A DNA stretch of 64,000 nucleotides from Polytrichum commune (lineage: Eukaryota; Streptophyta; Polytrichopsida; Polytrichales; Polytrichaceae), in contig OX485809.1 of assembly GCA_950295325.1 (NCBI GenBank), forward strand, positions 1,676,001 to 1,740,000. The letters are read 5' to 3'. Both the position numbers and the translations under genes were made by a program. Every line of letters begins with the position of its first letter. The stretch's first letter is position 1. The notes under the pieces were generated by a model, which saw only the letters and a program-made list of their open reading frames with translations, was not told the origin of the DNA and made no database searches. This document shows positions 3,731 through 64,000 of the stretch, piece by piece.

Positions 3731-4176
3731 TCGAGGCCCACTTTTGGTTTTTCCCAATGATCAAATTCGAATGAGTTTGGTGGACCATGCATGCATGGAG
3801 CCAGCTAAAGGCCATGACCATGTAATTGTGAGGGCCCTTGACCCTCATCCAAAGGCTATACCAGATGTCTAAGGCCCTTGACTCTACCATGGTTTGCCGC
3901 TCGGAGGGTGGACTCTTCATACCACATATGAACTACCGTGAGTTTACAAAGGGGTGTTGTTTGAGGCATTAGCGTACATAATATACATAAGGGAGGGGTA
4001 TTATTTTTCTCTAATGTGTACATCCGAAAAGGTCGTTAAGAAATATGAAGTAAAGGTAGACATACAAAAGGGGGCCCTAAGGTTTGGAGAAAATACTTGA
4101 CAAAAGATGTGTTAGTTTCATCCAATTCATGTTTTCATCCATTGATGTCATATGGTAATAATCCTCAATGACTACC
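3731..4176 (+). repeat. Left copy of a 445-bp direct repeat (candidate target-site duplication)
   Basis: This 446-bp segment is repeated at 5401-5845. By eye the copies differ by eight substitutions and one single-base gap, about 98% identity. The two copies abut the two ends of the retrotransposon fragment at 4177-5400 exactly, with no unexplained bases. Flanking sequence to the left of this copy and to the right of the other copy is unique. That is the geometry of a target-site duplication. Confidence 0.9.
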
Positions 4177-4177
4177 T

Positions 4178-5227
4178 GGAAATGAAATGGCGGATACACT
4201 AGCAAATGCAGGAACACAACAAAACAAACCCGACATCACACCAAGAATCCACATAGCCCGCACTACCCCATATTGGCTAGCAAGTTGCCCAACCGGCACA
4301 CACGACGGAGCAATCCGCAACCTCCGCACATTCATAACAAAAGCACATGAAAGTCAAGAATCCGCATCAGCCAACCAAAAATACCTATACGTCAACAAAT
4401 GGCTATCAAACGAACAAATAAACCAAAAATTGTCAAGTCACTTCTGGAAAAGCAAGCAGGTCCCCGACACACAAATTACCCAAACCCTCAAATTTAGATA
4501 TGCACAATACATGGGCAACCATAGAAAGCATATATTTTGGCCCCTCCAATACCCAAATCCCAACTGCACACTATGCCAAAGAAATGACAGAGACACATGG
4601 CCCCACCTACTATCAACATGCGAACACCCTTATTTAAAAGGGCTTAGAATCTCAAGACATAACAAAGCTGTCCATCTGATCACACAAACACTACAAGCCA
4701 ACAAAAATACCCAATTCTTTACACTGGCCAATGCTCGTAACCTCAACAACCAACCGCCAGACAACACAGTACCCGGTTGGCTCCTAGCATGCACATGCCC
4801 GCAAACGCCATGCCACTGCCAAGCCAAACTAAGACCTGACATAACGTGCATTATAGGAGCCCACAACCAATCACCAACACCGATGCTACCCTCCCCTAAA
4901 CATACAATCCAATTCATCGAATTTACATACTGCCATGACAGATTTCTTGAAGAAGCACTCACCCATAAACACACCAAATATGACCCACTCATCAACACCA
5001 TACAAAGTAACGGATGGAAAGTCAACCCCCTAATCACCATCACAGCCGGAGTAAGAGGTGCTATCCACGAACATTCCATGGAAAAGCTAACCAACCTAAA
5101 AATCCCAAAACACAACATTAAAACCCTCATGAAGAAAATACATGAAAATGCCATCAAATATCTCACATACCTCGTCCTAAACAAAAGAAAACTCGATAAC
5201 AAACAAACCCCTGTCCCCCCACCCTAA
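4178..5227 (+). pseudogene. LINE polyprotein C-terminus: RNase H end, CCHC zinc finger, restriction-like endonuclease-like domain
   Basis: This is an open frame of 349 codons (346 from the first Met at 4187) with no internal stop, cut off at its N-terminus by the truncation. The first residues match the last catalytic block of RNase H (GNEMADTLA). A C-x2-C-x9-H-x4-C finger sits at Met-numbered residues 127-145 and is followed by the arginine- and histidine-rich GLRISRHNKAV stretch. A second Cys/His-rich knot precedes Arg-Pro-Asp at residues 216-218. Glu245 lies in an IEFTY strand, and a K-x-x-K-Y motif follows. The series RPD...E...KxxKY resembles the PD-(D/E)XK restriction-like endonuclease of R2, CRE and Dualen-type elements. 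The RNase H and zinc-finger calls are fairly firm; the endonuclease is by motif only. There is no promoter and no RT domain, so it is not a functional gene. Confidence 0.75.
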
Positions 5228-5845: not shown

Positions 5846-7139
5846 CTATCCTTTCTTATTTGAGTTTGCATTCTGGGTACTAGGTGTTTACAAATTGGAG
5901 GCTCCATGAGTGCTCATGGGCTCCCTCGAGTTTTGTTCTCCATATTGTGGCTAAGTTATTATGTTTTTGTCTTTGTTTGTTTGATGCAATCGTTGAGTTG
6001 CATGCTATGGATGAAAATATGTTCAATGATTTTCTCATTGGAAAGTGATAGTGGATTTCATATGTAATAAAGACATATTTAATTCACAATATATCTTGTA
6101 TATATAGTGGAGGCATTTATCACATTAAACTAGAGGAAGCTTAGTATATATACATGATTCCATTTTCTATCATGCAATTAGTACGTATACATTTGTTTTT
6201 TCTCTATGAACTTCTTGTATATGAGGGGATTAAATTTCTTTAGTGATCCACACATGGTAGCTATTGAATCAATTATCTGAACTCTCTTATGTGTGTAAAC
6301 TTTGCTCAAGGCCATTGTCTGCGTGGAGTAGTTGAGGGTGAAGTTTGGTACTCTAGACAAGGTAAGAGAACTAGGAACAATCTGAATCCAGAGGAGAAAA
6401 CAATATATAAGCAAACATATTCAAGTCGGGATTGAAACAACCATGAACAAACGATGAAAAGTGGAGTCAATACTCCTCAATCGACACTCACTATGAACAT
6501 GGGAAAGACTACCGTTTGAAAAAAAAGGTTAAGGAAGGTGAAAGCCATAGCTGTTGCAAGACCATTGTCCTTTGGAGTCTAAAAGACGTTAACCGGGATG
6601 CATGGTGATGCCATGGTTAGTGGCAACATGTGAACCGAAGAGCTAATTGTCTGAGCAAAGGGACTAAAGAAGGTGTACTATCAACCAATGGTTGATTAAG
6701 GCAAGTTCCAAATAAGGACTGACCATAGTCCTTTGTATTTTTTAATAAATTACAAGAACCGAGTATTAATTCAATTTTTCACGAACCAATGAACTTAAGT
6801 TATTAAAGAATAAATAAATAAAATAGAAGTCAGGTCAGGGTTTGGTTTGGTTTATACATCGACACGAATGGGAGCATGTTCCTTGATACGGTGTTTATGT
6901 ATGACCAAGTGATACCGAAAGGGTATTTCCTCCCTCTTGGAGGGTGGCCTCCTTTAGTTTTCAAGAAGAAACGCGATGCCTAACATGTAGGGAGGGGTCT
7001 TAGGGGGGTTGTTTGTTGTCTAGTTTCCTTTTGTTTAGTATAAGGATGTGTAAACTCAATTTTTTGGCCATCGCCTAGCTTTAGAGCTTAATTCTCTAAG
7101 TTAGTAAGAAGTAGTGGCAATAGGTAGTTAGGAACTCAC
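5846..7139. other. Anonymous DNA with one dispersed repeat
   Basis: Apart from Rep-R at about 5995-6240, no feature is recognised. Short open frames are present but unsupported. Confidence 0.45.
5995..6240 (+). repeat. Rep-R dispersed repeat, copy 1
   Basis: Diverged similarity to 17885-18150 and 61665-61945. Shared blocks are 'gttgcatgctatggat', 'tcattggaaa', 'tatgtaataaagacat', 'gtggaggcatttat' with 'acattaa', and a final 'tatatgaggggatt'-like block. All three copies are in the same orientation. It is non-coding and the family is unknown. Confidence 0.55.
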
Positions 7140-7865: not shown

Positions 7866-9455
7866 CTAAATATCTTCATCTTGTTCACATGCCTCCTGAT
7901 TTTCTTGTTCATCAAAATCAAAGTCCTCAACACCTGCAAGATCATTTGAAGTAAACCTGCTATCCCGGGTACGCAACTCCCGTATTATATGGTCCTGATT
8001 ATAATCACTTATAATGCGTTTTAGTCCAATATTGAGTGATACAATTTGTTTTAATGTAGGAAACCCTTGTAGACCTTCTAACAAGGAATCCAAAAATGTA
8101 ATTATATATAGGAAATGAATATATTTTGAAGCATATAATTGCATTAAAAACCTAATTATATGATTTTTTTTAATACAAGTACCATAGGTCAAACTACCCA
8201 ACTTTTTGGACTTTTTAATAAAATTTTAACATTGTGAATGAATTATAATTTTAATGGGGGGCTTAATAAATATACAACCCAACTTTTTTTTCATCTCATT
8301 TATTTAATTTGGTCTTCACCCAACTTTCTGATCATTTTAATTTGATATAATTTTTACAAAAGCCGTCCTCTAAGCCGTTTTAAGTACGATGCCCCCTGCG
8401 TATAATATGGGAGTTGCGTACCCGGGCCTGCTATCTCTTCTCCTAAATGTTTTTATCCGCTTCCCAGCCACAAGTATCTTTAACCTTGTGCCATCCAACT
8501 CACGAAGAGAATAGGTGTCATTGTCATGTACTGCAATTACCACATATGGACCAAACCATCTTCGAGCAAATTTTGTAAAGTGCTATGTTGATGTTCCAAA
8601 CTGCTATTGAATACCAACACCCAATCTCCAACATTAATTGGTTCGGATTTTAAATGGTGAATTTGTCAAACCTCTCTTTGTTATATAGTTTGGTAGCCTT
8701 TAATTTCTCTAATGCAATCTCTTGATCTTCAAGCAATCTTTCAAGTTGTTGAATTCGGAGCTCCAATAACCTCTCTCTTGTAATGTCATCCTCTCAATTC
8801 AACACTGACCACGTGAGAATATAATCCTCTACATGCATAATTGGTTTCTGACCCAACATCAACACAATAGGCATATATCCAATAATAGTGCTATAAGTGG
8901 TTCTATCTACCTATAAAGAAAATGGTAGAAGTCTTGGCTAGTGTTTTGGCTTACCTCTACAAGCCTTGACAATAGCATTTACAATGGGAGGATGTCCTCT
9001 CTCACTCTTGTCATTTGCCTCAGGATTGTAAGCAGTTGTCAGCTTCAACTTCACACCATATCTTTCAAAAAAATCTCTAGCCTCGGTTGCATCTAATTAT
9101 CCTCAATCAACCTTCATCCTACCAATGTTACTATATCTGCTAAAGGTATCCTCCAAGATAAATCTACACACATTTATTGTGGTTTTAGTCCTCAAAGCTC
9201 TACCTTCAACATAGTTTGAGAGTTCCTCTATTGCCAAAACAAGATATTTCATGCCCCATAATTCTAAAGGCATAGCTACTAAATCAATCACCAACTGGAA
9301 GTACATACTAAGTGGATAAGTAGGATGCAACTCGTCCTTGTATCCGACTTTAGACAACAACTGACATTCATTGCAAGAAGCCATAAATTCCTCTACATCT
9401 TTATAGAGATCCTTCCACCAATATCATTATTTGATCTTATGATATGTCACCCAAA
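7866..9455 (-). pseudogene. Gypsy integrase and pol C-terminus, broken by frameshifts and by a MITE
   Basis: The N-terminal zinc-binding part is visible as YWWKDLYKDVEEF followed by C-x2-C (CNEC, near 9370). The core follows with VIDLVAMP (first catalytic Asp), LVLA..LSN, VEGRAL and a second Asp in KVD near 9105. A stop or frameshift follows. The reading then resumes with FFERYGVKLKLTTAYNPEA and SERGH, whose Glu fits the third catalytic residue. A chromodomain is not evident. The last 33 or so codons (7866-7963) are separated from the rest by the inserted MITE at 7964-8426 and end in an acidic tail. As it stands it cannot make a working enzyme. Confidence 0.78.
7964..8426. mobile_element. hAT-like MITE with CCCGGGTACGC ends and 8-bp target duplication
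   Basis: The ends are inverted copies of CCCGGGTACGCAACTCCC plus RTATTATA, about 26 bp with one mismatch. The insertion is flanked by CCTGCTAT on both sides (7956-7963 and 8427-8434), an 8-bp duplication as made by hAT-type transposases. It sits inside the end of the gypsy integrase reading frame, so it is younger than that element. It is 463 bp with no transposase. Confidence 0.85.
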
Positions 9456-18699: not shown

Positions 18700-20730
18700 G
18701 GTTGTGTTCCATTTTGTATTGAGCATTTGACATGGGCCTTCACTATCTTACCTCCATGAGCAGAAACTTAGGAAATAGGAAGAAATTGATGCCGATATGA
18801 ATAATGAATAGTGCAAGTATGGATAGTGTGCCCAGGGAGTGCATTGTTCAAGTACTGTATTTATACACGTGGGTGCACAAAAGGGGTATTATTTAAAACA
18901 AGCATGTACAAAATGTACGTACAAGAGACATATTGCTATTAAGCAAGAAGTAGATATACATGAGGCTATAGAAAAATATATGTAAAGTACGCATTTACGT
19001 GTTTACGCGTTCAAGTCAGACCTGGACCAAGAATCATGTGTTTTTTCATCCACTAAGTAACGACTTTATAACTAAAAATCCACGATTTGATATTATACAT
19101 ATAATAGGGCCATATTTGTGCATTTCTAAACATTTGTACACATGTTATATACAATTTTTGTATTTGTTTTTGGACCCTTGTGTATGTATGGAAATGTATT
19201 TTGAAGCAATGAGATTTGTAAGTATATTGATTGATTTTAGCAAAAATAAAATGTATACAGGGGTATTTTAATAAGGGGCATGCACGCACGTGATGCTTGG
19301 TTTTAATGAATAGTGCACTCCTTGAGATAGTGTGAGTAGTGTCAATATTTTCAATGATAGTGATGCCATGAATAGTATTTTGGGGAAAATATTGGGATGA
19401 ACATTGTTTCTTGCAAATATTATTGGGATGCGTAGTGATTCTTGCACATAGTGCCGGGAATATAACTCCACCCAAATTTTCAAGTTGAGTCTAAATGTAT
19501 GAATAATAACAAATAATCTTGCTTTGTTCACTGACTCTTGGGATATAATTGACATATTCTAGGGTCGTGGAACTGACCCACATGGTTGAATAATGTTATG
19601 TTAGTGGCCAGTCAAAATTTTTTTTTGAAGGCCAAGGCTAGATGCCCACCTCTTTGAGGTGGACCCCCACAACTTTTACCAAAGTAAAGGGGGTCTAGTA
19701 AAAACATGACCCACGCATATTTGTGGTACCTTTAACGTAATTGGAGTTCCTACACTAGAGTAGAGCCACCCATTTCCAATTAGGATCCCATCAAGAATCT
19801 ATAGGGTGCCATAAGTTTGATAAGGTTGGGACTAATTTTGGTAATTCTTTTTGTGGGTGGCTAAAATGAGGTTCCATGTCTCACAATGTCTAAGGTTAGT
19901 TTCCATGTGGGTTGCTCACCCATTGTATTCTAGAGTGAATAAGGAGAAAACTGGCCAATTGTAGAGGGAATGAGGTGGGGTAGGTTTGTATGTGCCAACT
20001 AGCTATTCCCATCTTCTCAAATCTAGGCCCACTTACTAACCTCTTCTTCATGGTTACCAAAGATAGAGTTCTACACTAACATTGATTCTCTTGAGTCTTG
20101 AACCGGTCTTAATCCTTCGGCAACCGGCACTTGTAGGTCAAAGATTCTTTACTGGACACATGGAAGTCTAGTGGCCCTCCACATTCTAGCAGACCACCGG
20201 AATGTGGTTGGGTGGTGGCTTGTGTTTAACTGTATGTGAACACCTCCGACCCACTACTATCTAGAATCCAGTGGGCAAGCAACCTACATGATAACCCACC
20301 CTAGGTCTCCAACTTTGGTTATGGTATCACCAGCTTTAAGTGCTAAAGTGAAGAGCAATTTGTTTCAAAACAAGCGGTTATGGCAGACTCTAGACAGTGG
20401 TAATGCATTTGGGCCAACTTCTGACATAAAAAATCCCCATTAATTTCAATTTAAGGAATAAAGTTACCAAAGTTCTCTGACAGTCCTCCAAAATTCGATC
20501 TTCCTACGCATGAAACATTTGCACCACCTCATATTTCTCCAAGTTTAGCACAAAATCTCTTCGAGGATCAGTTATGGGTGCCTCTTTTAAATCAGAGCCT
20601 TTGATATTAATTTCAAGCCGTATATCTCAACAAAAGAAACCTAATACTATAAAAAACTTTCCTAAGTTTTCACCTTGGGTAACAAAGGTAGGGGCCCAAC
20701 TCAAAGAAATGATCCTATTTAAGACCCATC
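18700..20730. other. Anonymous DNA, no gene recognised
   Basis: Overlapping open frames at 19053-19555 (minus) and 18999-19271 (plus) show no motifs. The stretch 19620-20330 has a moderately higher GC content and could be an old retroelement fragment, but nothing identifies it. Confidence 0.4.
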
Positions 20731-21182
20731 TACACTCTAAACTCCGTAGTATCACACTTGTGGCAACAACGTGCATGTGATATTACGGATAGTTTTTTAG
20801 TGTTAACATGGATGTGTGATACTAGTGAATTAGTGTAGCATGTGACACTATGGAATAACACAAAATGCAACATATTAAATGGTGTGGTGTGGTCCACTCC
20901 ACTTGGCCTTCCGGGGCGATGTGGCATATGCATGCACCAACATTCAACAAGCGGCAAAAGAAGAAGAAGAAGATCCACATATTGACACATGGCGCAATGC
21001 TAGGGTGTGAGTTGACTTCTTTGATGATTTGCATTAATGAGAAAATTTGTGATATAAGGGAGAGAAAGGTGGCAATAAGGAGTGAGATTTGAACTACTGT
21101 ACGAACATCCTTTCCCTAGGGTTTCAGGATATTAGAAAGTGAGTGACATTATGGTGGTTGATATTACGGAGTTTAAGATGTA
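20731..21182. mobile_element. MITE with TACACTCTAAACTCCGTA-type ends
   Basis: The left end TACACTCTAAACTCCGTAG and the inverted right end TACATCTTAAACTCCGTAA form an imperfect inverted repeat of about 24 bp, followed by similar 'tatca' blocks. TA borders both ends. It is 452 bp and the interior is non-coding. The superfamily is unclear. Confidence 0.6.
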
Positions 21183-32999: not shown

Positions 33000-33540
33000 G
33001 CTCATTCTAAACGTTAATCTTATTGAAACCCTCTCCACCTAACCGTTCCACATGCTTGTAGCCTCGATTTGGACCGTCCAATAAAAGTCAGTGTATGTCA
33101 AAAGGTCCTTCATTGCATCGTCTACAAGGGTTCAATCCAACTCGGAGTATGAATTCCAATCAACTTGTGGATCCTTATATGGACTCGTTATGAGCATTGG
33201 ACGAGCTAGCACAATCCATATTGGACCTGCCAGCATAGCACAATCCATGTCACTATATACCATTACATTAACCTTCTATGTAGTACAAGCCAACACGCTC
33301 ATCGGAAATGTAGACACCCACTTTGGGTGGGTAGTAATGGATGTTGCTCTCCAACAAATCAACCTCCCCTTCACCATAAAGAGAATCTTTAAGAGTTACC
33401 CTAAGCAACTCTAAATCCTTAACATTGAGATACATAAAACTTTATATAAACATGTAGTGTGGAATGCACCGAATTGAAGAGTGGAAAGCAATGTTTAAGC
33501 TTTCTCATTGCCATCATATAAAACCATAGCAAGGACCTCC
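33000..33540. other. Anonymous DNA with one open frame
   Basis: A 107-codon plus-strand frame at 33091-33414 has no motif I recognise. I do not call it a gene. Confidence 0.35.
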
Positions 33541-33543
33541 AAT

Positions 33544-33883
33544 CTCGGGGGGGGGGGGGTAGTCATTGGTTGGAGTAGCACTATACGTGCGAACAAATGA
33601 TAGGGTATTTTAAAAACATGGGGGCAAAATTTTATAATTGGACTTAAGAGTAATATAGGGTATCAAAAATGGCACTGGACATCTTTAAAGTACTATAGGG
33701 TATGGAATAATAGGGAATTTGGAATTATAAGTAATGCAAGCCATTTTTCTATTAACCCAAAGTAGAATTTTACATAATGATAGCATGTGAAAAAAAAAAT
33801 TGAAAGTAATACCCCCCTATAAAATAGTGGTTGTTCGCACCTATATCCTTAACTTTCTAACACACTGCCCCCCCCCCCCCGAG
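33544..33883 (+). mobile_element. G-run-ended DNA element, copy A, with 8-bp target duplication
   Basis: Ends are CTC followed by G13 on the left (33547-33559) and C13 followed by GAG on the right (33868-33880, GAG at 33881-33883), an inverted repeat made mostly of a homopolymer. CCTCCAAT flanks both sides exactly (33536-33543 and 33884-33891). A subterminal inverted pair ATATACGTGCGAACAA / ATATAGGTGCGAACAA lies inside each end. It is 340 bp with no coding. Copy B at 47743-48083 is about 96% identical by eye. The 8-bp duplication suggests a hAT-type transposase. Confidence 0.9.
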
Positions 33884-33899
33884 CCTCCAATCCTTAAAC

Positions 33900-46870: not shown

Positions 46871-47742
46871 CATGTGTCCGTTTTATTGAAGCATAATAGA
46901 ACTAGAGATCATATTGCACAAGTAAATACACAATCACAAAGGCATATAAACAATGCTTTGAGTGAGATGATCACCTCTACTCCTTGTTTTGCTCTTTATT
47001 GCATTTTTCCTTATGGGCTCATACAATGCATATGAAATATCTCAACTCCCAATTCCCACAAGCCATATGGATTTATTCAAACCTTATCCATTTGTATACC
47101 TCTAGCCTTCACAAATCCTATGACTACAAGCAATCTAATACTCTTACCTCGGCACGCTTACAATAAAAACCGAATTAGGCACATCTACCTTAGGTCAAAA
47201 TTATATCCAATCAATTGTAATTCGGAATTTAAAATTTTCAAAGGCTTCTAGTTTAATCGCAAGGGTAAACAATTTTTTTTAGAAAGATACGTTTAAACAT
47301 GTTGGAACTTGTAAGTACTTACATGTACATTGGGTTATTGCCATATGAGGATGAATGTTTCTTAAGACACTTAGGTTAAAACATAGTGAACTATCTAGAA
47401 TTTTACATTATACTTACCTTCAAATGCCTTGTTAGGGTTTGTTTATACACAATCCTTTAGTGTTTCTTTCAATTGGAACATCAAGTTGACAATAGCCTCT
47501 ATCTCACAGAAGCTACTCCACTTTAGGGAATTAGTTGGTTTGAAGCCATCATGATAAACTTTCAGTCCCATTAGCTTTTTTTGGGTTCCCGAACTTTATA
47601 ATTAATTTCATTTCATTTCACTTGATTTGTATTGCATTATGGCCAGGCTATAATATGCAATTGATCTATGTGTAGGGTGAAATGTCTCTCATTCATGTCA
47701 ACAGTGTCGGGTGGTGTTTTTTCTCTCGATGTGTAGTATAAT
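46871..47742. other. Anonymous AT-rich DNA
   Basis: Short overlapping frames only. Nothing recognised. Confidence 0.35.
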
Positions 47743-48083
47743 CTTGGGGGGGGGGGGCAGTGTGTTAAAAAGTTAAGGATATAGGTGCGAACAACCACTA
47801 TTTTATAGGGGGGTATTACTTTCAATTTTTTTTTCACATGCTATCATTATGTAAATTTCTACTTTGGGTTAATAAAAAAATGGCTTGCATTACTTATAAT
47901 TCCAAATTACCTATTAATCCATACCCTATAGTACTTTAAAGATGTCCAGTGCCATTTTTGATACCCTATATTACTCTTAAGTCCATTTATAATTTTTAGC
48001 CCCCATGTTTTTAAAATACCCTATCATTTGTTCGCACGTATATTGCTACTCCAACCAATGACTACCCCCCCCCCCCCCCGAGA
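47743..48083 (-). mobile_element. G-run-ended DNA element, copy B, with 8-bp target duplication
   Basis: Inverted relative to copy A (33544-33883). Ends are CTT-G12 on the left (47746-47757) and C16-GAG on the right (48065-48080, GAG at 48081-48083). AGTATAAT flanks both sides exactly (47735-47742 and 48084-48091). The body is about 96% identical to copy A by eye. Homopolymer length differs among the four ends (12, 13, 13 and 16). Confidence 0.9.
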
Positions 48084-49530
48084 GTATAATATTTGATAGT
48101 CATCTAAGAACCATAGATGAAGTGCTTTCATTATCTCCCATGGGGATTCTAAATTGGTCTATTATATTTGTACATGGCTAACAACCATATGTGTTTTTGA
48201 AATGCAAACGATTTATTGAACAAGGTTTAATAGTGCACTGAAAATCAAATGATTGAATATAGATTTGAAAGGAAGAAGTTTATGATACGACCCATGATAC
48301 ACTCAAATTCCAAGTTGCATGCACTTATGATGTCTACATAAACTCGCCCATTAAGAAAGTGAAAAAGCAAACAACCATTCTATATTACTGAACTTCGTAG
48401 TCATAAGAAACCTCAAATGGATCTCGAATTGGTCTAGTGGAATCTAGTTGAAATGATACGGCCTTCAATACATCTTGTAAGGGACTTGATTTCAATGTAA
48501 CCCCTTCATCAATGATGAAAGATGATAAATGTAGTAAAGCTCTAGCCATGCATATTAGGTGGATGCCTACGTAACAACTACCATGCCTTGGTCCCCACCC
48601 CAACTTTTACATATCTTTGCAATTTATAAAGTTTACACATTGTAACAACACATATTCATAAATGGCTTGAGAAAGAGAAACATACGATATATATATACCC
48701 CATTTTTCACTGCTTTAGAGGCTAAATGATGGAAAGTAGATTCCCATCATGGGGCAATAAAGAGTAAGAGGGTAATTTAAAGAATATACAAATGAATGGG
48801 GAGAACCGGCTACTAGTTACACATAAAGCGGTTCATTTTTTCAAACTACCGGTTCAAAATCAAAACCTTAGGACATGAATCGAAACATATTTTGAAAAAC
48901 ATACGATCTCATGTTAAAATACAAGGAATAATCAAAATATTTCATTGAAAAAGTGGTTGATATTAAAGAAATAATGGTACCGGTCAAGTTGGCTCAAATT
49001 CCTCCATGTTCATTGCAATATATCATCAACAAACTAGAAAGATTATCATTCTCCATTCCTCTATTAAACGTTAATGAAAATACTCCATCAAGTCTTCATA
49101 AGAGATTCCTTTGGTCAACCTTAAACCCAATTGAAGATGATAAGAAGAAGATGAAGTAGAAGAAATCCTACAATGTGCACAATCAATTCAATGGGACCTA
49201 GCAATCCATGGGGAATATTCTTGAATAATAACTTTATGATCCAACTATTATGCACCACTCATGCTAAAATATGACAAAGTCGACAAAAGTAGCCTCAATC
49301 TAGGAAAGACGGCATCAACTGCATGTTGCAAACCGTGAGGGCTATTGTAGGCATATAGCCATTCTAGCACAAACCTATGCAAAATTATTGATTAATTTGC
49401 CAAATTCTAGTGTGGCATGTTAAGAACTTATTTGGAAGAAGAAAAAATAAAAATAAAAATAGTGTGAGTATTCATTAACTTCGACCTTTTCAAAATTACT
49501 GAACTAAGAAGTGGTAGGTTTTCACAATGC
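48084..49530. other. Anonymous AT-rich DNA
   Basis: A 72-codon minus-strand frame (48385-48603) is somewhat protein-like but unrecognised. 'accggctactagt' and 'ctaccggttcaaaa' words at about 48800 and 48850 form no clear structure. Confidence 0.35.
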
Positions 49531-60549: not shown

Positions 60550-61460
60550 AAAGACTAACTATGTTGCGCACCTCTCCATGAGTGCCTGCAACACCATGGG
60601 CACAACGGGGACCCCAGAGTGACACCAGGGACTTGTGGCACCATTGGTGAGAGGGCCCAAGTGATCCTACTGTGGGTGAGGGCGCCGGGCATTGGGAACG
60701 CCTCCCACCCATGAAGACTACGAATCACAAGGGAAAGGCCATGAGCTCTGAGTAGCTTATGGCATCCGGATTCTAGAATGCTCAAGAACACCTCAATTGG
60801 AGGTGTGAGCTAGGAGATATGGCAATTTGAGTGGGGTGTTGCCTAGGGACAACACCCTGGGACAACAATGACTTGGGAGTGGCACCCGCGACTGCCTAGG
60901 TTTGAAATGCCATAACTTCTTTAATACTTGCCTGAATGGGGCAAGTGAGGGTCTATTGGCATTTACGTAAAGAGCACATGCTAATAGAGTGGTTTCTTGA
61001 TAACATTAGAGATCATGGGAAGAACTTAAGGTGGTCTAAAGCTGTTGGGGGCATCTAGCCCAGCGGCTATGGGAAAATGTCTACTTGGCCCCAACCTAGG
61101 GAGAGAGACAAAAGGTGACTAGACGGTGGGGTAGGGGCCCTGCCCAAAGTCCTAGAGGCTTATATGGGTGAGGCAGCGTGGCCGACTAAACCCACCTGGA
61201 GCCGAACAACACGGCCTCCACGGGCATTGGTTTAACATGGGGGCATAGTTGCATAGTATGGTTCGGATTGTTGTAGTGTTGCTCCGGCAACGCGATGATC
61301 AACTAAAGATTGGACTTCCATGGATGGAAGTCCACATCTAATTGTTAGTTACCGGTTAAGGGGAGAGTCCCAAATGGAGATGTACAAAGGGTTGGTCCCC
61401 CACCTATGAGCTAATGAGGTCCGCGGTATGGGGAGCTAAGCATTCACACGGTGGAATCAA
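60550..61460. other. GC-richer block, possible retroelement remnant
   Basis: Base composition rises above that of the flanks. Text such as 'ccataacttctttaatactt' and 'gggagagtcccaaatggaga' is reminiscent of LTR sequence, and 'ggacttccatggatggaagtcc' at 61313-61334 forms a 9-bp hairpin. No gene can be supported. Confidence 0.3.
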
Positions 61461-63204: not shown

Positions 63205-64000
63205 TCATAATGTGTCATTGAGATCAGGTAAAGACCTCTCACTAGAGACAAAGAAGCTTCTAATGTCACATTGTTTTGTTGATGTTAAATGTGCAACACC
63301 AATTCTAATGAGTTTGTCATGGATTTTTTCCATTTCTAACAACTCATGAGTGCTTAAAATCTGAGAACCTTGGCTAGCCATAAAATTCAAAACATCTTTA
63401 GCATATTTTTGTGCATCGCTTAGCTTCACTACTTTAGACTCATCATCATTGCTATCAACAATCAATGGGTCCACTTCCATGGAATCAAGAACCTGTTCGC
63501 CATCTTGCACTAATTGCACAAGCTCCTCATTAGAAAATTCCACCTCAAAATCATCTTCACCTTCCATGTTTATGTACTCCAAAGGACAAAGCTTTTCTAC
63601 AGGCTTGCCTTCAACATCCAAACCCAAATTTAATGCGGCGATGAGTCTACCCAATTCCAAAGTTGCTTCCTCCATTTTGGACTTCATACGTTCATCAAGA
63701 TTGTTTATATCTGCATTCCACTCTGCATGCAATATGGCGGACTTTCTCCAACAATTTCTAATGGTTTGATCATCTAATTCATGCCATGCCGCCACACACC
63801 ATAGCATAGCTTGAAATACATCAACATTCAATTTTCCCAAATCTTCATTTGAGTTGTTATCAATTTGTTGCAAAGTCCAGGCAACAAGCTTGCGCTTATA
63901 GCACATTTTGAATGCTGCAATCACTCCTTGATCCAAAGGCTGAACAACTGAAGTCACATTTGGTGGAAGGAACAAGATAGTGATATGGGAGAGTACAAAA
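63205..64000 (-). CDS. pogo/Tigger-type (CENP-B/jerky-like) transposase, C-terminal part
   Basis: An open frame on the minus strand from the window edge to a TGA at 63205-63207, at least 257 codons. It is partial because the N-terminus lies beyond 64000. Near its start ILFLPPNVTSVVQPLDQGVI is the hallmark block of Tigger/pogo DDE transposases, with the third acidic catalytic residue in LDQG. It continues FKMCYKRKLV and NCWRKSAI, also typical. A long acidic region (EDDFEVEFSNEELVQLVQDG) and a Lys/Ala helix follow. Near the end KQCDIRSFF matches the PCNA-binding Q-x-x-I-x-x-F-F box described for pogo. The first acidic residues and the CENP-B-type DNA-binding domain are not in the window. No frameshift is visible, so this copy may be recent or intact. 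Confidence 0.88.
   Translation of the reverse strand, partial: FVLSHITILFLPPNVTSVVQPLDQGVIAAFKMCYKRKLVAWTLQQIDNNSNEDLGKLNVDVFQAMLWCVAAWHELDDQTIRNCWRKSAILHAEWNADINNLDERMKSKMEEATLELGRLIAALNLGLDVEGKPVEKLCPLEYINMEGEDDFEVEFSNEELVQLVQDGEQVLDSMEVDPLIVDSNDDESKVVKLSDAQKYAKDVLNFMASQGSQILSTHELLEMEKIHDKLIRIGVAHLTSTKQCDIRSFFVSSERSLPDLNDTL

Follow-up and report, generated by a model that had tools for sequence, protein, structure and literature searches.

The 340-bp element at positions 33544 to 33883 (+ strand) of the window, i.e., the whole 64-kb stretch of DNA that was analyzed, is a MITE made up of both termini of an autonomous DNA transposon of 8.4 kb, joined together with about 8.1 kb of the middle absent. 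We describe here the mobile unit, its ends and target duplications, its parentage, the protein family that the parent encodes, and a site conserved near the ends of the family. Judging from sequence comparison, we put at about 0.78 the probability that the MITE is moved in trans by the enzyme of its parent, has an 11-nt G-rich tip, and owes its homopolymer ends to the lengthening of a G8 run by slippage. The family as a whole, a cut-and-paste DNA transposon plus its MITE, stands a reasonable chance of representing a new superfamily. The fuller proposal is that these elements form a superfamily of DNA transposons not yet described in plants, with a putative ~1,500-aa transposase that bears a P-like string and lacks any recognizable homologue, 11-nt G-rich tips made into homopolymers by slippage, and a conserved GTGNGNNC site; we hold it at slightly short of even odds.

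A MITE family with G-rich tips and 8-bp target duplications

The element, which we call copy A, begins with CTC-G13 (33544 to 33559, +) and ends with C13-GAG (33868 to 33883, −), and the 8-mer CCTCCAAT flanks it on both sides (33536 to 33543 on the left, as read from the sequence, and 33884 to 33891 on the right). The original prediction of a DNA transposon with these boundaries, these tips, and a perfect 8-bp duplication was correct to the base. Inside the tips lies a pair of subterminal sites, GTGCGAACAA at 33587 to 33596 (+), of which GTGNGNNC is the conserved part, and its inverted counterpart at 33831 to 33840 (−), which are candidate transposase sites. A second copy of the same MITE, copy B, occupies 47743 to 48082 (−), with 96.7% identity over 333 bp. 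It reads CTT-G12 ... C15-GAG, has its subterminal sites at 47785 to 47794 (+) and, inverted, at 48028 to 48037 (−), and is flanked by AGTATAAT at 47735 to 47742 and 48083 to 48090.

Elsewhere in the window, we noted part of a pogo-like DDE_1 transposase, 264 aa long (PF03184, E = 4.3e-17), at 63208 to 63999 (−) and a 351-aa open frame at 4172 to 5224 (+), which looks by eye like the end of a LINE open reading frame and whose only Pfam match, DUF2043, was below the cut-off.

Almost the full 340 bp recurs across the genome, with 96 to 100% identity in the 40 matches scored out of 1,551 candidates. A 33-base core, allowing at most 3 mismatches, matched 848 + 799 = 1,647 times genome-wide, and its reversed control pattern did not match at all. 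A pattern of seven or more G and then GTGCGAACAA matched 1,218 times on the reverse strand, its backwards control giving 1 and 0 matches; the forward count of 7,765 is too high because one long run can be matched from several overlapping starts. The abundance of the MITE is thus about 1,200 to 1,650 copies in this 408-Mb plant genome, which has seven large contigs, with the window on a contig of 42 Mb.

We sampled 81 copies, comprising the 40 scored body matches including copy A, copy B, and 40 exact core matches, the latter being the first 40 by position of 100 listed, taken irrespective of their ends. The target duplication was a perfect 8 bp in 72 of the 81 copies, had one mismatch in 7, and was worse in 2 (L015 and L073). 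When flanks were swapped between copies, an 8-mer with at most one mismatch was found in 22 of 16,007 pairs, as opposed to 79 of the 81 true pairs. CTC formed the tip at 71 of 81 left ends and equally at 71 of 81 right ends, the median divergence from the consensus was 2.2%, and the 72 sites with perfect duplications showed a target preference for T as the third base (0.56) and A as the sixth (0.47).

Empty sites that have one copy of the target and lack the G-run were found for 12 of the 81 copies by matching the joined flanks, across the insertion point, to repeats in the window or at other fetched loci. These are paralogous sites rather than alleles, with identities of 73 to 87%, and the clearest belong to L002, L004, L018, L029, L032, and L061. 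Four lie in the window: that of L002 inside a repeat at 5877 to 5884, and those of L029, L004, and L018 near 19979 to 19986, near 21121 to 21128, and near 61100, respectively. The original prediction had asked for a genome-wide search with the element body and named copies with non-G ends or devoid of 8-bp repeats, or G-runs that predate the insertion, as evidence against itself. The search returned more than 1,000 copies, 79 of the 81 sampled keep an 8-bp duplication with at most one mismatch, and the paralogous empty sites of 12 copies lack the run. The reading as a DNA transposon therefore holds, and the element is a MITE in that it is short, non-coding, and present in many copies, has inverted tips and sites as well as target duplications, and has an autonomous partner with the same ends.

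An autonomous parent supplies both ends of the MITE

The parent is represented by two loci, L045 and L047, of 8,426 and 8,423 bp, which are 99.54% identical to each other. L045 is flanked by the duplication GTGATTTC and has tips of G11/C8, and L047 is flanked by GCAATGGT and has tips of G8/C9. Positions 9 to 171 of the MITE (window 33552 to 33714, +) match the left end of the parent, its positions 4 to 165, at 91% identity, and positions 173 to 333 (window 33716 to 33876, +) match the right end, its positions 8259 to 8420, at 87%. The deletion junction in copy A, as placed by this alignment, is at 33714/33716.

A protein search of the genome revealed a large family, with 1,757 candidates, of which 49 were scored, at 42 to 100% identity, and we read 14 loci among these 49. 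Eight of the 14 have both ends and an 8-bp duplication (perfect in seven, with one mismatch in the other); a single end was found for three (L046, L050, and L054) and none for the remaining three (L051, L052, and L053) in the stretches read. The bounds of six of the eight complete elements are also set by near-identical pairs (L040/L041, L043/L044, and L045/L047), and those of L048 and L049 rest on the end scan plus the shared motif. L040 and L041, reached by a pattern for family ends with an interior unlike that of the MITE, are two 6,351-bp elements that have the same kind of ends, differing 8-bp duplications, and long open reading frames without a Pfam match.

L043 and L044 make up a second autonomous subfamily, of 5.8 and 7.1 kb, that is 99.5% identical in the longest match, the longer element having extra sequence. 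In the parent's 5′ non-coding portion (L045, 7571 to 7710; L047, 7542 to 7681), we noted a repeat common to the flank of the MITE copy L061, to L053, and to L049. The 3.1 kb upstream of the parent's open reading frame may hold a captured or nested repeat.

The parent encodes a large protein with a P/THAP9-like residue order

The one long open reading frame of the parent encodes 1,509 aa, and five full-length relatives encode 1,490 to 1,499 aa in a single open frame. Seven family proteins, six of them full length, aligned with a mean column identity of 64%. The dN/dS ratio was 0.10 in the only one of 21 pairs with unsaturated dS, the remaining 20 pairs being saturated. Because it is the only long open reading frame of the parent and is common to diverged elements with such ends, this protein is most likely the parent's transposase, a DDE/D enzyme.

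Searches against known families gave little. Among 24,736 Pfam models, at E ≤ 10, there were three sub-threshold names, each in one of the seven members (best E values of 0.038, 0.24, and 0.28), and NCBIfam returned one match below the cut-off (E = 0.14), i.e., no credible family. In the PDB, searched by sequence, a single protein matched nanobodies only (E = 0.55 to 1), the whole-family profile matched nothing, and the core gave one meaningless match (E = 1.4). In viral contigs, a pattern from one protein had 0 matches and a pattern from the alignment had 55, none a tblastn relative; there was likewise no relative among 134 pattern matches in bacterial and archaeal genomes.

The residues invariant in all seven members include D700, D819, D821, D866, H869, D1058, and E1061. 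Among them is the signature D700, D819, D866-x2-H869, D1058-x2-E1061, which has the residue order of P and THAP9 transposases, with spacings of 119 residues between the first two Asp, 47 from the second Asp to D-x2-H, and 195 from D-x2-H to E. Column shuffling produced the signature string in 0 of 20,000 trials, with windows chosen after the data had been seen. We read the signature as suggesting P-like working parts rather than P membership.

A subterminal site is conserved at the ends of diverged elements

GTGNGNNC was present at all 21 ends entered, starting 24 to 33 nt inside the G-run; the background was 191 of 20,000 windows, each with 14 start positions, drawn from the 64 kb. The 21 ends, 19 from autonomous elements and 2 from the MITE, cover diverged families and include near-identical copies. 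Those of L050 and L054 were included although no duplication confirms them, and two unconfirmed candidate G-run ends (L053 at 1490 and L046 at 7657) were left out. The suggestion that the subterminal GTGCGAACAA pair is the binding site thus gains weight, its GTGNGNNC core being kept throughout, and GTGNGNNC is likely the recognition site of the transposase.

Tips with an interrupted G-run mark a sub-lineage

A pure homopolymer is not required at the tip, as some copies have the interrupted 11-nt tip CCCGGGGAGGG, with a G4-A-G3 block. Two copies of the position-chosen sample, L071 and L090, carry CCCGGGGAGGG at both ends together with perfect duplications. Genome-wide, there are 34 such ends (21 + 13) in 26 elements, of which we read 22. 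The block was present at both ends in 20 of them, five having point changes in one tip, and was paired with a pure run in the other 2. The duplication was perfect in 15 and perfect at a tip-adjusted offset in 3 more (L103, L110, and L115), had one mismatch in 3, and had two mismatches in 1, so that 21 of the 22 have at most one mismatch.

The G/A block was 8 nt long at all 42 ends that bear it. As 20 of the 22 elements were found through the exact pattern at one end, this constancy is biased towards unchanged length; the partner end kept the block in 18 of these 20, as did all four ends of L071 and L090. The constant 8-nt block, along with parent tips near G8, suggests an 11-nt founder tip of the form CYC-GGGG-R-GGG.

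The interrupted-tip copies form a near-clade, with 21 of them grouping with 3 others at a support of 0.85, and tip type requires 5 changes, compared with a shuffled mean of 20. Their mean distance, 0.0435, exceeds that among pure-tip copies, 0.0342, and they are therefore probably older. At MITE alignment columns 219 and 223, the parent's bases are mostly present in interrupted-tip copies and mostly absent from pure-tip copies, while the parent itself is pure-tipped; body and tip type thus tell different stories. This sub-lineage serves as a natural control that parts what the end requires from what slippage adds.

The G-run probably lengthened by slippage

Strictly pure tips numbered 138 of 162, with runs of 6 to 25 nt that peak at 8 and at 13 (16 tips at 8, 4 at 10, and 25 at 13). 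In the parents and autonomous relatives, the runs are 6 to 15 nt long. Exact G-runs on both strands of the genome number 5,267 at length 8, 5,886 at length 10, and 4,206 at length 13, and the numbers expected from the frequencies of the window run count are about 4,200, 240, and 3, respectively. G-runs are thus ordinary up to about 8 nt and hugely over-represented beyond. Family tips may supply some 440 to 600 of the genome's G13 runs (25/138 tips × two ends × 1,218 to 1,647 copies), a minor part. Because the genome has more G10 than G13 and the tips have far more G13 than G10, the genome pattern alone does not explain the peak of the tips at 13.

Outside both copies, the window has 10 G/C runs of at least 12 nt in 63 kb (9 when one run near an end motif is left out), compared with about 0.002 expected under a first-order model. 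Such runs were rarer elsewhere, with 1 in 138 kb of transposase loci, family tips excluded, and 1 in 23 kb of MITE flanks. Since long G/C runs abound in the window and the genome, the G-run alone is not the unusual feature of the element. The density of long G-runs was higher in the window than at the other loci that we read, and A/T runs of at least 12 nt occurred once in about 201 kb, in contrast to the excess of long G-runs.

The left and right runs of the same copy showed no correlation (rho = 0.16, P = 0.33, in the 40 copies chosen by position), and similar copies did not have similar run lengths (rho = 0.05 and 0.07). There was no relation between run length and divergence at the left (rho = 0.27, P = 0.11) or right end (rho = 0.01, P = 0.95) in 38 copies, L015, L071, and L090 being excluded, nor between run length and identity to copy A (rho = −0.11). 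Run length thus did not rise with divergence and gives no indication of slow lengthening with age; slippage at the moment of insertion, an equilibrium that is quickly reached, or source copies that already had about 13 G are equally compatible with these data. A C6 run inside the MITE has a length of exactly 6 nt in 71 of the 79 copies where it could be read, as a length threshold would predict, and an internal A-run, by a rough measurement, is also variable. In L021 and L022, which have identical flanks, the left run differs by one G. L021 is on an unplaced 21-kb contig (C39) and L022 on a chromosome (C4), and the two represent the same insertion as a duplicate or second haplotype.

That the long runs arose through errors of assembly or sequencing is highly unlikely. 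Homopolymers are error-prone, and the one-G difference between L021 and L022 could be taken that way, but the internal C6 is exact in nearly all copies and one-base errors would not create a second peak at 13.

The original prediction had offered another reading of the run, as a structural end, quadruplex or slip-prone; in a functional version of this reading, the transposase would read such DNA and selection would act on the length of the run. In keeping with this, at least 4 G stand in a G-rich tip at every family end found, point changes aside, and the tips peak at 13 while the G-runs of the genome do not. About 8 G, or G4-A-G3, is too short for a three-tetrad intramolecular quadruplex, however, and both G8 and G4-A-G3 copies still carry target duplications; beyond the element, too, long G-runs are over-represented. 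Of that proposal, the place of the run within the ends stands, and its structural role is weakened by parent tips near G8 and by the interrupted-tip elements, to the point that we regard a functional run as quite improbable. The founder tip, including that at the left end of copy A, was probably CTC-G8, lengthened by slippage. If the functional block is 11 nt long and slippage stretches a pure G8, the homopolymer is probably a side effect and not something that the transposase recognizes.

Proposed mechanism and implications

In the mechanism that we favor, a DDE/D transposase with the P/THAP9-like string would bind GTGNGNNC about 38 nt from the tip, cut at the CYC tip, and insert the element with an 8-bp stagger, and the MITE would be mobilized by it in trans. 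The functional tip would be the 11-nt G-rich block CYC-GGGG-R-GGG, as the two tip types suggest, and a pure G8 block would be extended by polymerase slippage during or after insertion. Slippage may act at insertion, which the filling of a long single-stranded end would favor, or in later replication, and the same process seemingly acts on other G-runs of the genome above about 8 nt.

More than 1,000 MITEs and several autonomous relatives with open frames of ~1,500 aa thus point to a transposase outside every profile library that we searched. For land plants, one review puts the number of superfamilies of such elements at six (PMC9033089). In mostly open-access literature outside Repbase, consulted in part, we found no description of such a G-run-tipped element; the family may already be known in Repbase. 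According to its description, one MITE program discards candidates with a homopolymer of at least 8 nt in the terminal repeat, and others act similarly (PMC4726161). This filter may have kept the family hidden and suggests that comparable families may be missed systematically.

Comparison with known transposon superfamilies

The 8-bp duplication is shared by several superfamilies, and the original prediction had proposed looking for a hAT-type transposase gene with the same ends. Like hAT transposons and plant hAT MITEs, the family has 8-bp duplications, short tips, subterminal sites, and abundant MITEs; an 11-nt tip with subterminal sites resembles hAT in general plan, and hAT genes are abundant in the genome (PF05699, 150 matches scored of 1,060 candidates). 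Unlike in hAT elements, none of the seven members of the parent's protein family matches a hAT profile at E ≤ 10, given that weak matches can be lost to filters, though PF05699 is readily detectable in the same genome. The tip here is CYC-G8, and CTC is unlike the usual hAT start. The D-x2-H to E distance of 195 is close to those of P (192) and THAP9 (199). A hAT partner was rejected on the ground that a parent with the MITE's own ends encodes a protein family without a hAT profile, and that a hAT MITE is mobilized here by a hAT transposase is accordingly very improbable.

A second possibility, which we view tentatively and below even odds, is that the parent truly belongs to the P superfamily, as a highly divergent plant representative. 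The P signature is D230, D303, D339 (D-x2-H), and E531 in DmTNP and D304, D374, D414, and E613 in THAP9 (PMC8230255), with D528, three residues before E531, being a GTP-binding residue (PMC7776569). Traits of P given by the latter source are a target duplication of 8 bp, binding sites of 10 bp inside the element, and a 3′ overhang of 17 nt. The family here shares the order D, D, D-x2-H, D-x2-E, invariant in its seven members and absent from the column shuffles, a D-x2-H to E distance in the range of 192 to 199, the 8-bp duplication, and a conserved internal motif that is a candidate binding site. The P element is also listed among the superfamilies of angiosperm MITEs in a review (PMC10004981).

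The family differs from P and THAP9 in protein length (1,490 to 1,509 aa) and in profile similarity, as no P, TNP-like, or THAP profile was matched at E ≤ 10 by any of the seven members; a genome search with PF21787 was empty, and the same search was matchless in control genomes too. Its first two Asp are 119 residues apart, compared with 73 in P and 70 in THAP9, i.e., there are 46 to 49 extra residues, and the second Asp is 47 residues from D-x2-H, compared with 36 and 40. The G-rich tip is 11 nt, in contrast to a 31-bp repeat in P. The host is a plant, with plant-type TTTAGGG repeats at four of five contig ends fetched (the fifth reads N), and THAP domains are absent from plants according to a review (PMC7776569). 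If the parent were a P member, the tip would lie inside a long 3′ single-stranded end, and poly-C gap filling would stretch the run at each jump. The P-like string makes a link between P-type enzymes and plant transposons testable.

Novosib and Zisupton/KDZ may also make 8-bp duplications, and it is possible but unlikely that the family belongs to such a Repbase superfamily with few public profiles. Both are named as superfamilies in Repbase papers (PMC4455052, PMC5753468), and Novosib is among the superfamilies of angiosperm MITEs (PMC10004981). No such family was matched in the Pfam models, which may not hold them all, and the likeness is a possible shared 8-bp duplication. Finally, a pineapple MITE with simple-sequence ends, as described in the available part of its report (PMC8449440), is similarly a MITE tied to a simple repeat; in the family described here, the G-run lies within an 11-nt terminal repeat and the autonomous parent is known.
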